NCBI RefSeq assembly: GCF_004349065.1
Contig: NZ_SMKZ01000001.1
Span: forward strand, 186,001-250,000
Direction of reading: 5' to 3'
DNA: 64,000 bases
Source of the DNA: Jiangella asiatica
GTDB lineage: Bacteria > Actinomycetota > Actinomycetes > Jiangellales > Jiangellaceae
In this document: positions 5,220-12,942 of the stretch, one piece after another
How positions within the stretch are numbered: the stretch's first letter is position 1
Layout of the letters: every line of letters begins with the position of its first letter
Translations under genes and position numbers: made by a program
The notes under the pieces: model-generated
The model's input: only the letters and a program-made list of their open reading frames with translations
The model's database searches: none
What the model was told of the DNA's origin: nothing

Positions 5220-5431
5220 TTCCGCGGCCGGACCGACGGCATCAACGCGCTGCGGCATTTCTACCCCTCGACGTTGCTCGCCCCCGGGTTGTCGATCAAG
5301 GAACTGGCCGAGTACCTGGATCCAGGCCGATGCGGGCGCGGCAAGCCGTCGATGCCGTGTTCGGATCCGAAACTGACGGCCCAGAGACGGCCCGATCATG
5401 GAAACCGGCCCGATGCGCGCCCTCGGACTAG
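5220..5431 (+). pseudogene. Relic of a tyrosine recombinase (phage-type integrase) C-terminus
   Basis: One forward frame reads a segment typical of integrase box II: A-L-R-H-F-Y-P-S-T-L-L followed by G-L-S-I-K-E-L-A-E-Y-L. The Arg-His pair and the S-I-K-x-L-x-E-Y-L run match actinobacterial tyrosine recombinases. The normal continuation (L-G-H, then the tyrosine-bearing Y-T-H-L-M-P segment) is missing. Reading then resumes in another frame as R-A-R-Q-A-V-D-A-V-F-G, which is the usual integrase tail, and stops at 5429-5431. No start or N-terminal catalytic domain is present. It is therefore a deleted and frameshifted fragment, probably marking an old integration event. The stop overlaps the 3' end of the acyl-CoA dehydrogenase gene. 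The bases between the operator and this relic (5035-5219) hold nothing I recognise. Confidence 0.65.
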
Positions 5432-8168: not shown

Positions 8169-9437
8169 CTACTGCTCTTCCTCCAGGAGCTCGGAGGGGA
8201 TGTCGGTGCCGTCCTGCAGGGCCGTCCAGAGCTGCCCGGCCGCCTCCTCGTCCCAGGTCACGGTGTTGCCGACGTCGCCGAGGGGGACGGTGAGGGTGTC
8301 GCCGGAGCCGCCGGAGACCGAGCCGATGCCGCGGACGAACGCGAACATGTCCAGTGGTCCGGTGTCCTCGTCGAGAACCAGGGCGTCGCCGCCGGCCAGC
8401 GCCGTCCGCGCCAGCTCCAGCGGATTGAGCAGCGTGCCGGCGGACATGGCCTTGTCGGAGATCGCGGAGATGAGCTCGCGCTGCCGCTCGACCCGGCCGA
8501 GGTCGGAGCGGGGGTCGAAGTGCCGGGCGCGGGCGTAGCCGAGCGCGTCGGCGCCGTTCAGTTCCTGGCAGCCGGCCGGGAGGTCGATGTGGGCCTGCTC
8601 GTCCTGCACCGCCTCGTCCAGGCACATCTCGACGCCGCCGAGCGCATCGACGATCTCGGCGAACCCGCCGAAACCGATCTGGACGTAGTCGTCGATGGCG
8701 ACGCCGGTTTTGGCCTCGATGGTCTCGACCAGCAGGGGCGCCCCGCCGAACGCGAAGGCGGCGTTGATGCGGTTCTCGCCCTGGCCGGGGATGTCGACGA
8801 CGGAGTCGCGCGGAATGCTGACCAACGCGTTTCGGGCGCCGCCGCCGGGAACGTGCAGCAGCATGATGGTGTCGGTGCGCTGGCCCTCGACGCTGCCGGT
8901 GCCCAGCTCGCTCTGCTCCTCCTCGGACAGGTCCTCGCGGCTGTCGGAGCCGACCAGCAGGAACACCCGGCCGTCGGACGTGGCCGAGCCGTGGTCCTCG
9001 GGGATGGCGTCGACCTTCTCGATGCGCGACCAGACCCACCAGACCAGGACACCCAGCGCGATGGCGATCACCAGCAGGATGGCCAGGAACCAGCGCAGGA
9101 AGCGACCGAACCCGGATCGGCGCTTCTTCGGCCGGTCCGGCGGCTCGTCGCCCGGTCGACGCCGGGTGGCCGGTGGCGCCGGGGTCGGTGGCTCGCCGCC
9201 GGCCGGCTGCGCGGCCGGGTAGGCGGGCTCGGCGGCCGCGGGCATGACGCTCGTGCCGCGGGGGGCAGCTGGCGCCGGCTCGGGGCCCTCCTCGTCCTCC
9301 CGAGGGGAATGCGGCACGCCACCCCGGTAGGAGACACCTGGCACGTTGCCCGCCCGGTACGTCGTGACCTTGACCTCGGTACCTCTCGCTCCGCCGCCCT
9401 GCTCGGGCGGCGTGCCGGATTCGCCGTCGGGTCGCAT
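8169..9437 (-). CDS. LytR-CpsA-Psr (LCP) family cell-wall glycopolymer ligase
   Basis: LCP enzymes transfer undecaprenyl-linked glycopolymers onto peptidoglycan. The 422-residue protein has a long Pro/Ala-rich cytoplasmic tail (1-105), a basic cluster P-K-K-R-R, one transmembrane helix (about 110-135) and an extracellular LCP domain (about 150-320). Conserved features are L-L-V-G-S-D-S-R, R-T-D-T-I-M-L, V-S-I-P-R-D-S, R-I-N-A-A-F-A and the R-x-x-R-Q-R motif near 305. The start may be the ATG at 9437 or a GTG one codon earlier. It is convergent with ugd across hairpin copy A. A second, differently built LCP protein lies at 11314, so the locus carries two candidate ligases. Confidence 0.92.
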   Translation of the reverse strand: MRPDGESGTPPEQGGGARGTEVKVTTYRAGNVPGVSYRGGVPHSPREDEEGPEPAPAAPRGTSVMPAAAEPAYPAAQPAGGEPPTPAPPATRRRPGDEPPDRPKKRRSGFGRFLRWFLAILLVIAIALGVLVWWVWSRIEKVDAIPEDHGSATSDGRVFLLVGSDSREDLSEEEQSELGTGSVEGQRTDTIMLLHVPGGGARNALVSIPRDSVVDIPGQGENRINAAFAFGGAPLLVETIEAKTGVAIDDYVQIGFGGFAEIVDALGGVEMCLDEAVQDEQAHIDLPAGCQELNGADALGYARARHFDPRSDLGRVERQRELISAISDKAMSAGTLLNPLELARTALAGGDALVLDEDTGPLDMFAFVRGIGSVSGGSGDTLTVPLGDVGNTVTWDEEAAGQLWTALQDGTDIPSELLEEEQ

Positions 9438-9498
9438 CACTGCTCGACCATACCCACATCGGACGGCGCGGAGTAACCCGCCGACCCTCGCGCGGACC

Positions 9499-10332
9499 TC
9501 AGGGAAACTCGACGTCCGTGCCGTCGACGACGCCGAAGTGGTGGGCCGCGGAGCCGCAGCCGACCACCAGCTCGACGAAGCCGGAGCCCGAGCTGCCGAC
9601 CACCAGACCCGCCTCGCCGGCCGGCACCTCGGCGAGCCGCTCGTAGCAGCGCACCTTGTGCGACCCGAGGTCCTCGCCGGCCCGCGAGAAGCTCACGGCC
9701 AGGCGCGACCCCGGCTCGAAGCCGACAGCCTCCGCTGTCGCGGTCAGCTTGCAGTTGCCGAAGTTGTCGACCAGCCCGACCCGGACCTTGGTCGCCTCGG
9801 GCACGGCCGGCACCCGCGTCGTCGTCGCCGGCACCGGATGCCCGTCGAGCACCCATTTGGCCAGCAGCGGCAGGTACCACAGGCTGCGGAATTGAGTGGT
9901 GGCGACGGCGTCCGCCTCGGCCCGGGAGAGGTCGGCCCACGCTGTGGCCGCACCCAGCACCGTCCGCGCGTCGGTGACCTCGACCTGGGTGACGTCGAGG
10001 TGGGTGCGCACCATCGCCAGCAGCCGGGAGTCGTAGGTGCTGAACACCGTGTGCGGCCCGAGGCGGAACCAGCAGAACGGTGCGCCGTTCTCCCAGGTGC
10101 CGTCGCGCGGGGCGACGTTCACCAGCGTCACCGTCGGGAACCCGTCCTCCCCGAGCGACCGGGTGGCCAGCAGCACGTCGAGCAGGGTGAGCCCGGCTGT
10201 CTGCTCCGGCGCCGGGCCGTCGAGCGGGAGCAGTACCGGCGACCGGCCGAAGAGCGCGGCCATTCGCGTGCTCAGCCGGGCCTGTGCGTTGGTGTCCGTA
10301 CAGTCGCTGAGGTACGTGATCGGCGGGTACAT
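9499..10332 (-). CDS. SAM hydrolase-like protein (SAM hydroxide adenosyltransferase/fluorinase superfamily, DUF62)
   Basis: A 277-residue protein related to the SAM-dependent chlorinase/fluorinase and SAM hydroxide adenosyltransferase family. Characterised hydrolase members split S-adenosylmethionine into adenosine and methionine. The N-terminal part starts I-T-Y-L-S-D-C-T-D, aligning with the usual T-D-F-G-x-x-D motif, and V-N-V-A-P-R-D-G near 105 matches the second motif. The C-terminal barrel has V-D-N-F-G-N-C-K near 190 and G-S-S-G-S-G-F-V-E-L ... G-S-A-A near 250. It belongs to a divergent actinobacterial subgroup, so activity (hydrolase or halogenase-like) is not proven. The ATG has a GAGGGG Shine-Dalgarno. 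Upstream lie a strong promoter, a Met-rich leader peptide and a terminator hairpin (annotated separately), suggesting methionine-linked attenuation. Confidence 0.75.
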   Translation of the reverse strand: MYPPITYLSDCTDTNAQARLSTRMAALFGRSPVLLPLDGPAPEQTAGLTLLDVLLATRSLGEDGFPTVTLVNVAPRDGTWENGAPFCWFRLGPHTVFSTYDSRLLAMVRTHLDVTQVEVTDARTVLGAATAWADLSRAEADAVATTQFRSLWYLPLLAKWVLDGHPVPATTTRVPAVPEATKVRVGLVDNFGNCKLTATAEAVGFEPGSRLAVSFSRAGEDLGSHKVRCYERLAEVPAGEAGLVVGSSGSGFVELVVGCGSAAHHFGVVDGTDVEFP

Positions 10333-10368
10333 GGTCCCCTCGGGGTCAGCTGGTGGGAGATGGGCATG

Positions 10369-10398
10369 AAAAAGGGCCCCCGGCAGATGCGGGGGCCC
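10369..10398 (-). terminator. Intrinsic terminator in the leader of the SAM-hydrolase-like gene (attenuator candidate)
   Basis: On the minus strand a 9-bp GC stem (GGGCCCCCG with CGGGGGCCC), a 7-nt loop and a TTTTT run follow each other. The stem is 10374-10382 with 10390-10398 and the T run is 10369-10373. It sits between the promoter and the gene start at 10332, with no minus-strand gene upstream that it could end. A regulatory attenuator is therefore the simplest reading. On the plus strand no T run follows it. Confidence 0.75.
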
Positions 10399-10418
10399 TC
10401 GACGCTGGCGTGACGGAG

Positions 10419-10472
10419 CTAGGCCAGCAGCGAACCACCGCACGGGGAGTGCAGCATTCGCATCATCATCAT
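10419..10472 (-). CDS. Putative 17-residue leader peptide with Met run
   Basis: A short frame on the minus strand reads M-M-M-M-R-M-L-H-S-P-C-G-G-S-L-L-A then TAG. Five of the first six codons are ATG. It begins about 16 nt after the predicted transcription start and ends 20 nt before the terminator stem. No good Shine-Dalgarno is visible, so translation would have to start near the RNA 5' end. The layout of promoter, run of one amino acid, stop and terminator is that of ribosome-mediated attenuators, here for methionine. The leader segment TCCCCG could pair with the 3' arm of the terminator if a ribosome stalls on the Met codons (inference). Confidence 0.5.
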   Translation of the reverse strand: MMMMRMLHSPCGGSLLA

Positions 10473-10494
10473 CTGGCCACGCGTCACGCGTTGA

Positions 10495-10523
10495 ACCGTA
10501 TCCGGCGCCATCGGGCCGGTCAA
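10495..10523 (-). promoter_or_regulatory. Sigma-70-type promoter for the leader and SAM-hydrolase-like gene
   Basis: The minus strand shows TTGACC, exactly 17 nt, then TACGGT (-35 at 10523-10518, -10 at 10500-10495). This is close to consensus for a housekeeping actinobacterial promoter. The predicted start near 10488 gives a 5' leader of about 155 nt before the coding ATG at 10332. That is long enough to hold the leader peptide and terminator. Confidence 0.65.
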
Positions 10524-11137: not shown

Positions 11138-11313
11138 GCCCGAATCGTTGCGTGTCACCCATGACGTGACGTGGCCATCGTGTGACGGGTGTGACGCAAG
11201 AGACCCCTGGGCTCGGCGCGCCGCCGACGATATCGGTGCTCCTCGTGGTGATACTGGCGCAGCGGGGTGCGCGACGGGGCCCCGTCGTGTGGTTTGCATG
11301 TTGGGGGATGTGC

Positions 11314-12942
11314 ATGGGTACAGCGGCACGACCGCCGGATCCGCGGCGGGATCGAGGCCGGCGGCAGGCGATGGCGGCGCTTCGGGCCCAGCGGGCCGAG
11401 GCGGCGCGGTTCCGCCGTTCCGTGACCCTGGTGGCGCTGTCGGTCATCGCGCCGGGCAGTGCCCAGATCATCGCCGGGCACCGCAAGGCCGGCAAGATCG
11501 TGTTGGGGGTGGCCGCCGGTCTGCTGGCCATCACGCTGCTCGTGCTCTGGCTGGTGCCGCTGCAGGACCTGGCCGGCCTCGCCGTGCGTCCGTGGCTGCT
11601 GTCCACGTTCAAGGTGTTCGTGTTCGGGGTGGCGCTGGCCTGGGTCGTCGTCATCATCGACGCCTGGCGGCTCGGCCACCCGCCGGGGCTGAACCAGAAG
11701 CACCGGCTCATCATGATCGGCGCGACGCTGGCGCTGGCGGCGATGGTGTCGACGCCGTTCGTCGTCGCCGCCCGCTACGCGACCGCCGCACATGACGCCG
11801 TCGTCGAGATGTTCCCGTCCGGCGAGGTCGCCGCCGCCAGCGACGGCCGGCTCAACATCCTGCTGCTCGGCGTCGACGCCGGCGACGGGCGCGTGGGCAT
11901 CCGGCCGGACAGCATCAACCTGGTCTCCGTCGACGTCCGCACCGGCGAACCGGCGATGATCAGCCTGCCGCGCAACCTGGAGAACACCCGTTTCCCCGAC
12001 GGCACGCCCGCCGACGACGAGTTCCCGCGGGGGTTCTCGGGCGAGGGCGACGAGTCCGACTACATGCTCAATGCCACGTGGACGTTCGGCGAGGAGAACC
12101 CGGAGCTGTTCGAGGGTCCGTCCGGGCCCGGGCCGACGGCGGTGAAGCAGGCGGTCGAGGGCACCCTGGGCGTCCCCGTCCACTACTACGTCGCCGTCGA
12201 CCTTCAGGGCTTCCGCGACATCATCGACGCCATCGGCGGCATCACCATCGACGTCCACGAGGAACTGCCGATCGGTGACAAAGGCCGGGTCCTCGAGCCC
12301 GGCGTGCAGGAGCTCGATGGGTATCACGCGCTCTGGTACGCCCGGTCGCGCGAGGGCTCGTCCGACTACGCCCGGATGGCCCGGCAGCGCTGCGTCATCG
12401 GCGCCCTGGTCAACGAGGCCGACCCGCGGACCGTTCTGGCGAACTTCCTCGACCTGGCCGACGCGTCGAAGTCCGTGGTGACCACCGACATCCCACAGCA
12501 GGACCTGACCAACCTGATCGACCTGGCGATGAAGGCCAAGGACCAGGAGATGACGTCGCTGCAGTTCGTGCCGCCGCTCATCGCGCCGGCCGACCCCAAC
12601 ATCGGCCTCATCCAGGATCAGACCGACGCGCTGCTCTCCGGCGACGCCGAGACCGGCGGATCCGAGCCGACCGAGTCGCCGACGGAAGAACCGACGGAGG
12701 AGCCGGACGAAGGGTCGGACGAGCCGACGGAGGAGCCGGACGAGGGGTCCGACGAGCCGACGGAGGTGCCGGACGAAGGGTCCGACGAGCCGACGGAGGA
12801 GCCGGACGAAGGGTCCGACGAGCCGACGGACGAGGACTCCGGGGACGCGGGCTCCGGGGATGAGGGCTCGGGCGGCGAGTCCGGCGATGAGGATGAGTCG
12901 TCCGGGCCGGTCGGCATGTCGTCGGTGTGCTCCTACGAGTGA
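11314..12942 (+). CDS. LytR-CpsA-Psr (LCP) family protein with extra membrane helices and acidic repeat tail
   Basis: A 542-residue LCP-type glycopolymer transferase. The ATG at 11314 has GGGGGA 5 nt upstream. Unlike the LCP protein at 8169, it has about four hydrophobic segments in the first 160 residues (near 30-50, 60-80, 90-110 and 130-150). The extracellular LCP domain (about 175-395) follows, with L-L-L-G-V-D-A, R-P-D-S-I-N-L, S-L-P-R-N, L-N-A-T-W-T-F, a Y-x-A-R-S-R segment and R-M-A-R-Q-R. The Arg-Asn in place of the usual Arg-Asp in S-L-P-R-N is a noticeable change. The C-terminus is a low-complexity acidic tail of Glu/Pro/Asp/Gly/Ser/Thr. It lies between hairpin copies B and C and upstream of glycosyltransferases. 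Confidence 0.9.
   Translation: MGTAARPPDPRRDRGRRQAMAALRAQRAEAARFRRSVTLVALSVIAPGSAQIIAGHRKAGKIVLGVAAGLLAITLLVLWLVPLQDLAGLAVRPWLLSTFKVFVFGVALAWVVVIIDAWRLGHPPGLNQKHRLIMIGATLALAAMVSTPFVVAARYATAAHDAVVEMFPSGEVAAASDGRLNILLLGVDAGDGRVGIRPDSINLVSVDVRTGEPAMISLPRNLENTRFPDGTPADDEFPRGFSGEGDESDYMLNATWTFGEENPELFEGPSGPGPTAVKQAVEGTLGVPVHYYVAVDLQGFRDIIDAIGGITIDVHEELPIGDKGRVLEPGVQELDGYHALWYARSREGSSDYARMARQRCVIGALVNEADPRTVLANFLDLADASKSVVTTDIPQQDLTNLIDLAMKAKDQEMTSLQFVPPLIAPADPNIGLIQDQTDALLSGDAETGGSEPTESPTEEPTEEPDEGSDEPTEEPDEGSDEPTEVPDEGSDEPTEEPDEGSDEPTDEDSGDAGSGDEGSGGESGDEDESSGPVGMSSVCSYE
12700..12831 (+). repeat. Tandem 33-bp repeat encoding an acidic wall-spanning tail
   Basis: Four consecutive 33-bp units encode E-P-D-E-G-S-D-E-P-T-E, with E to V at the third unit start and E to D at the last unit end. 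The units sit inside the 3' part of the LCP gene. Near-identity at DNA level suggests recent expansion and likely length variation between strains. Confidence 0.85.

Follow-up and report, generated by a model that had tools for sequence, protein, structure and literature searches.

Attenuation of transcription through a run of one codon in a leader peptide is textbook knowledge for tryptophan, histidine, leucine and other amino acids. Methionine is rarely described for classic leader-peptide attenuation and is an awkward choice for it, because methionine starvation also affects initiation. Among the open-licence papers searched, a single actinobacterial Met leader has been proposed, metL (MSTTSDRTPATEATTTPGARCMCRRMCAF, followed by a stop codon), and it comes without a clear terminator. 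Predicted from RNA-seq in S. lividans, metL is a leaderless Met/Cys leader placed upstream of metNIQ, a methionine-related operon; its Cys and Met codons are mixed and it lacks a typical Rho-independent terminator (PMC8079986). In a 2005 survey of actinobacteria, the regions ahead of methionine operons were reported to show no conserved RNA structure (PMC1262725). The candidate leaders of mycobacterial cys operons carry their Cys codons close to the stop, and a terminator hairpin is not conserved in them (PMC1262725).

The leader described here precedes, in Jiangella and again in Streptomycetaceae, a gene for a protein with the SAM-hydrolase fold. Like metL, it is a leaderless short ORF with Met codons in an actinomycete, for which methionine-dependent attenuation is proposed; unlike metL, it combines an M-M-R-M cluster with a strong terminator and an alternative pairing that is conserved, and it lies ahead of a different gene. 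Since metL is a predicted precedent, the Met-leader kind is already known, and the Jiangella/Streptomycetaceae leader is a variant of it. With the trp, his, leu and ilv attenuators it shares a short ORF carrying control codons, the 1:2, 2:3 and 3:4 pairings and an intrinsic terminator, whereas methionine would be the amino acid sensed and the target is neither a biosynthetic enzyme nor a tRNA synthetase. The actinobacterial trp, leuS and ilvB leaders are of the same class, and a leaderless start is common in actinomycetes (PMC1262725, PMC8079986). What it has in common with the mycobacterial cys-operon leaders is a short peptide, again actinobacterial, that would report on a sulphur amino acid. 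Finally, the SAM-I and SAM-IV riboswitches and the Streptomyces-metH and metK RNAs also regulate Met/SAM genes in cis, but sensing would here go through translation and not through an aptamer. No Rfam family matched at its gathering score at six loci, on which ground a riboswitch, including the SAM riboswitches and Streptomyces-metH/metK, was rejected.

The window, i.e. the whole stretch of 64,000 nucleotides of Jiangella asiatica DNA that was analysed, carries the leader on its minus strand. A -35-like hexamer, TTGACC (10518–10523, kept in 10 of 11 Jiangella loci), is separated by 17 nt from the -10 hexamer TACGGT (10495–10500), itself 7 nt ahead of the start of the uORF. The initial annotation had listed this promoter, the ATG run, the stop, the hairpin with its T5 and the gene start, and all of them were found on the minus strand where it had placed them. 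It had also given the leader frame 17 codons: a Met-rich frame ending in a stop is real, but the frame is open for five more codons 5′ of the ATG run, up to a GTG at 10487, and conservation concerns the GTG-type start and its spacing to the -10 hexamer, not a start in the ATG run. The uORF thus runs from GTG to TAG (10419–10487, the stop being at 10421–10419) and has 22 codons, five of them internal Met codons, for a 22-aa peptide (VTRGQMMMMRMLHSPCGGSLLA, the initiator being read as Met). The distance of 7 nt from the -10 hexamer to the GTG makes a leaderless start very probable; likewise, each of the 35 intact leaders of the two families shows RTG 6–7 nt past a -10-like hexamer.

The control codons ATG ATG ATG ATG CGA ATG occupy positions 10455–10472, within which ATGCGAATG is invariant in the alignments of all intact leaders, the 11 from Jiangella included. 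Next comes segment 1, CUGCAC (10449–10454), which according to folding pairs with segment 2 in the hairpin of the ribosome-free leader and over which a ribosome stalled at the Met cluster would sit. Segment 2, GUGCGG (10438–10443), is invariant in 11/11 Jiangella loci and can pair either with segment 1 or, in the folds with a stalled ribosome, with segment 3 to form the antiterminator. Segment 3, complementary to it and located within the 5′ arm of the terminator, is CCGCAU in the window (10387–10392); CCGCAC is found at nine Jiangella loci and CCGCAU at two, and both pair with segment 2. The intrinsic terminator (10369–10398; stem GGGCCCCC(GC)/(GC)CGGGGGCCC and U5 tract) begins 20 nt past the TAG: its arms, GGGCCCCC at 10398–10391 and GGGGGCCC at 10381–10374, flank the loop and TTTTT follows at 10373–10369. 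This GC-rich stem, previously counted as 9 bp, has eight contiguous pairs plus two more past a mismatch. An SD-like GAGGGG (10341–10336) and the ATG coding start at 10332 complete the region. The consensus scan of our tool missed both the promoter, whose hexamers are below threshold, and the terminator, whose loop is over the limit.

A leader is present at all 36 orthologous loci examined, 11 from Jiangella and 25 (not counting L117, a partial match) from four genera of a second family, which we infer to be Streptomycetaceae. It is intact and equipped with an intrinsic terminator in 35 cases, the remaining one (L060), from a 55%-complete assembly, being frameshifted. The orthologue occurs in 11 of 12 Jiangella genomes, the window's own counted (the family/order group of the window comprises 22 genomes). 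It is missing from nearly all other genomes sampled in the class, one genome outside the genus having it, and recurs in 12 of 393 genomes of a Streptomyces-like genus and in 14 genomes of three further genera of the same family. The gene itself is split into two frames in two genomes (L060 in G748, L058/L059 in G602), with completeness of 55% and 88%; because of this reduced completeness, sequencing error is a likely cause of these splits and of the frameshift in the L060 leader.

All 11 Jiangella loci have the leaderless uORF with an MRMLHxxCG core, the terminator and the SD. Upstream of the gene at 25/25 Streptomycetaceae loci there is a leaderless uORF with the core L/S-A-M-M-R-M-M-P, and the 24 intact ones end with P-x3-E-(A/V)-L-R and a stop, possess a terminator and contain an invariant ATGATGCGAATG in the alignment. 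The peptide consensus is MTHGQAMMRMLHxxCGRSMLA in Jiangella as against MQHTxxLAMMRMMPxxxEALR in Streptomycetaceae (both followed by the stop), with little in common except (A)MMRM, encoded by ATG ATG CGA ATG. Likewise, the terminators are unrelated in sequence (GGGCUCCCGC../..GCGGGGGCCC versus GGACCCUCCG../..CGGAGGGUCC), while the gene products of the two families are about 53% identical. The idea of a Met-codon attenuator, already put forward in the initial annotation together with a comparison of orthologues as its test, passes this test, since the Met cluster, the stop and the terminator are retained although the leader peptide has changed over most of its length. Its emphasis on a run of Met codons holds in part only. 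The conserved unit is M-R-M, accompanied in 34 of 35 leaders by at least one further Met, and the length of the run is not conserved: the window has four ATG and then one more, most Jiangella range from TMRM to AMMRM, and Streptomycetaceae show AMMRMM. Longer runs occur in the window and in G010, L003 and the window have one or two extra ATGs, and L007 differs by an ATG to ACG change. The CGA codon is invariant across all 35 intact leaders.

The terminators of Jiangella fold at -19.7 to -24.5 kcal/mol. In Streptomycetaceae, CCUCCG in the 5′ arm and CGGAGG in the leader are invariant in 24/24 sequences and the 3′ arm tolerates A to G changes (giving G-U pairs), which is what one expects of a 5′ arm with two partners; where four sequences have lost one base from the 5′ arm, the 3′ arm shows a matching deletion. 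Within either family the key pairs do not vary, and those pairs that do vary adjoin indels. Sequences being similar within each family, the independent evidence is nearer to two lineages than to 35.

Folding of the ribosome-free Jiangella leader yields a long hairpin (CGAAUGCUGCAC:GUGCGGCCGUUCG inside GGCCAG:CUGGCC), then the terminator. The alternative complementarity is that of GUGCGG with CCGCAY (CCGCAC/U) of the terminator 5′ arm in Jiangella; in Streptomycetaceae, CGGAGG can pair with CCUCCG in the 5′ arm and, in part, with the GCCCC.. that directly follows the Mets. Each family thus has, shortly after the Met cluster, a segment with two possible partners, the leader and the terminator 5′ arm. 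The pairing suggested earlier, of a leader TCCCCG with the 3′ arm of the terminator, is found in the window but not in its relatives, which have TCCTTG, TCCATG, TTCAAG or CCCCGG at this place, and it has to be abandoned; the conserved pairing involves the 5′ arm.

The effect of ribosome position was computed by masking 28 nt round each A-site codon, ending the transcript before the 3′ arm and calculating the energy needed to open the 5′ arm. With these equilibrium, non-kinetic folds (30 °C, 28-nt footprint, assumed geometry), the median opening energy in the 11 Jiangella leaders is 13.4, 10.1 and 8.5 kcal/mol at M, R and M, as compared to about 4–6 kcal/mol off the cluster and 5.6 without ribosome. 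The 24 Streptomycetaceae leaders give 7.7 and 8.9 kcal/mol at R and M, 4.5–6.4 elsewhere and 4.7 without ribosome. A ribosome at the stop codon does not leave the 5′ arm held above background. Similar contrasts were obtained with two other footprints, L051 excepted. Dinucleotide shuffles matched the contrast in 0–2 of 150 cases for L002, L005, L007, L009, L012 and L059, in 4–5 of 150 for L047 and L049, and more often for the weak L056 (16/150), L003 (30/150) and L051 (36/150), all these counts being exploratory, as the statistic was switched from pairing probability to opening energy after it had first been seen. In Jiangella, the pairing probability of the 5′ arm is saturated by weak local pairing and therefore measures the switch poorly. 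Ribosome-free Jiangella leaders already pair part of this arm (mean pairing 0.1–0.7), so that the switch is not clean absent a kinetic model.

The anatomy is thus conserved, the alternative complementarity is built from different sequences in the two families, and the folding response is centred on MRM. The leader has every defining feature of amino-acid attenuators that sequence can reveal, with an antiterminator predicted in silico that is weak for L003, L051 and L056. Our preferred reading, with a probability of roughly 0.78, is a trp/his-type, ribosome-mediated transcription attenuator sensing methionine upstream of the SAM-hydrolase-fold gene. Transcription would start at or beside the GTG/ATG of the leaderless uORF, and a ribosome would trail RNA polymerase. 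With ample charged elongator Met-tRNA, the ribosome would clear the Met cluster and reach the stop, the alternative pairing would not form, and the terminator would halt transcription ahead of the gene. When it is scarce, the ribosome would stall with the M-M-R-M codons in its A site and cover segment 1 (CGAAUGCUGCAC in Jiangella, the GCCCC.. after the Mets in Streptomycetaceae); the freed segment 2 would then capture segment 3, i.e. the terminator 5′ arm, no terminator would form and the gene would be read. We infer that the leader acts in vivo in this way, with uncharged Met-tRNA as the signal and low methionine turning the gene on. A complete attenuator found in two actinobacterial families, with different sequences around the same M-M-R-M core, would offer a testable case of elongation-based Met sensing on a leaderless mRNA.

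What the folding mechanics need is just a stall at the MRM codons, whatever its cause, and one may think of another trigger: a small molecule (SAM or a macrolide-like drug) that would arrest the nascent chain at AMMRM, or slow decoding of CGA. Short MRL-type motifs of Erm leaders stall ribosomes in the presence of macrolides, the CGA never varies and, as a point against Met sensing, methionine starvation would also lower initiation, that of the leader included. We nevertheless consider such a trigger unlikely, given that the residues preceding the cluster differ by family (GQA, GHA or VQA versus xLA) and those that follow are unrelated, that no resistance gene lies downstream and that the longer ATG run in the clade of the window fits codon counting. 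Base pairing explains part of the constancy of CGA, the partner being UUCG in Jiangella and UCGC in Streptomycetaceae. The leader hairpin also explains in part the conservation of CGA AUG CUG CAC in Jiangella, but the first Jiangella ATGs stay unpaired when no ribosome is present, so that the hairpin by itself leaves these Met codons unexplained. Rather improbable, in our opinion, is a more elaborate version in which the leader would be a dedicated stalling peptide, its AMMRM and CGA responding to SAM, a SAM epimer or a related sulphonium, and the protein a new, non-hydrolase enzyme handling this compound.

Promoter, ORF and terminator do form a complete short unit, which could be an independent small gene, for a leaderless small protein or an sRNA, with its own terminator and no regulatory role toward the SAM-fold gene; against Rfam, the window gives just sub-threshold matches, to unrelated sRNA families. 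We give this little credence: the unit is directly upstream of, and co-oriented with, one same gene in 36/36 loci, such a gene would have no use for a second pairing of the terminator 5′ arm, and the consensus scan, insensitive in this genome, detected no promoter between terminator and gene. The leader is, furthermore, absent at canonical paralogue loci, as the regions upstream of 14/14 canonical SAM-hydrolase genes are devoid of a Met-cluster uORF, of ATGATGCG and of T5. It would be most surprising if another amino acid were sensed, e.g. cysteine, which has a UGC codon in the Jiangella leader, is invariant in the 11 Jiangella leaders and would suit the sulphur-related neighbours in Streptomycetaceae, or arginine. 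Leaders of Streptomycetaceae have no Cys, save one at a variable position (L116), and a ribosome that has its A site at the Cys codon no longer gives capture of the 5′ arm above background; as to arginine, there is just one Arg codon inside the cluster.

The specificity of the leader was examined by pattern searches. The strict leader core has only six matches in 257 Gb, five of which are in Jiangella (J. rhizosphaerae, endophytica, aurantiaca, muralis and ureilytica); the sixth, in a Candidatus Aminicenantes contig (L043), is taken as chance. The loose pattern ATGATGnnnATG..T5 recovered from 394 genomes of the class this leader family and many other matches, mostly from smaller and AT-richer genomes, and in GC-rich genomes the ATGATGCGnATG matches are confined to this leader family plus two others (L067 and L070). 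When opened, these two showed no such leader and were read as chance. No plasmid copies were found.

The gene under this putative control (9499–10332, minus strand) encodes a 277-aa protein of SAM hydrolase/fluorinase fold with a divergent N-terminal domain. Pfam SAM_HAT_C matches it at 1.9e-8, its AlphaFold model has a pLDDT of 86.9, and all 35 Foldseek matches with E ≤ 0.001 belong to the superfamily (SAM hydrolases, SalL, ClA chlorinases and fluorinases). The C-terminal DNFGN, which has the D-x-FGN form, is invariant and GSSGxGxxELVVxxGSAA nearly so. SAM_HAT_N has no match in the product, and the NCBIfam (R)-SAM hydrolase equivalog scores 16.9 bits, below its cut-off of 350. The canonical catalytic residues of SAM_HAT_N we take to be the Asp of VVDPGVG, the Arg of GTxRR and the His of FAPAAAH. 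In a hand alignment guided by motifs and predicted strand order, computed alignments being unreliable in the N-terminal half, the Asp seems to be replaced by Ala74 (NVAP) and the His by Lys159 or Arg (LPLLAK/R). The product thus appears to be without the catalytic Asp and His of the hydrolase, and this apparent loss, added to the N-terminal half without SAM_HAT_N match, means that the name SAM hydrolase is not justified. An enzyme returning Met from SAM, as first envisaged for this gene, is therefore doubtful, even though the superfamily fold stands; SAM-like ligands may be bound or converted by the protein in some other way. For one DUF62-type protein, SAM hydrolysis has been doubted as the physiological role (PMC12120602). 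By tying a SAM-hydrolase-fold protein to methionine supply, the leader would bear on the function of DUF62-type proteins. Many Jiangella genomes (L024–L039) have in addition a canonical SAM hydrolase (LTDYG, VVDPxVGTxRR, FDGRDVFAPAAAH) without Met leader; the search for it detected none in the window's own genome. This genome has one SAM-I riboswitch (RF00162, 85.1 bits, G000:C31:81370-81482, L118) and no SAM-IV match.

In Streptomycetaceae the SAM-fold gene precedes an amino-acid ABC transporter, the gene for the substrate-binding protein coming next in most loci read. At L091, the permease and the ATPase score best, below cut-off, against L-cystine transporters, which would be a sulphur context. 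Between the SAM-fold gene and the transporter, 7 of the 9 Streptomycetaceae neighbourhoods read have a second short ORF (M...LPLVRRRHVDNVRCAADLCR, then stop), about 80 nt past the SAM-fold stop and with Cys codons near its own stop (L091, about 5350–5430 on the minus strand; L094–L099 too), possibly a separate Cys-type leader for the transporter. The Jiangella neighbours are a divergent thioesterase gene and a LytR-CpsA-Psr gene, which in the window (8169–9440, minus strand) starts on the same strand 58 nt past the SAM-fold stop, so that one transcript may cover it and the SAM-fold gene; the other Jiangella loci read have a gene at this position too. Elsewhere in the window, positions 11182–12942 of the plus strand encode a predicted protein with a long acidic repeat tail made of TEEPDEGSDEP units.
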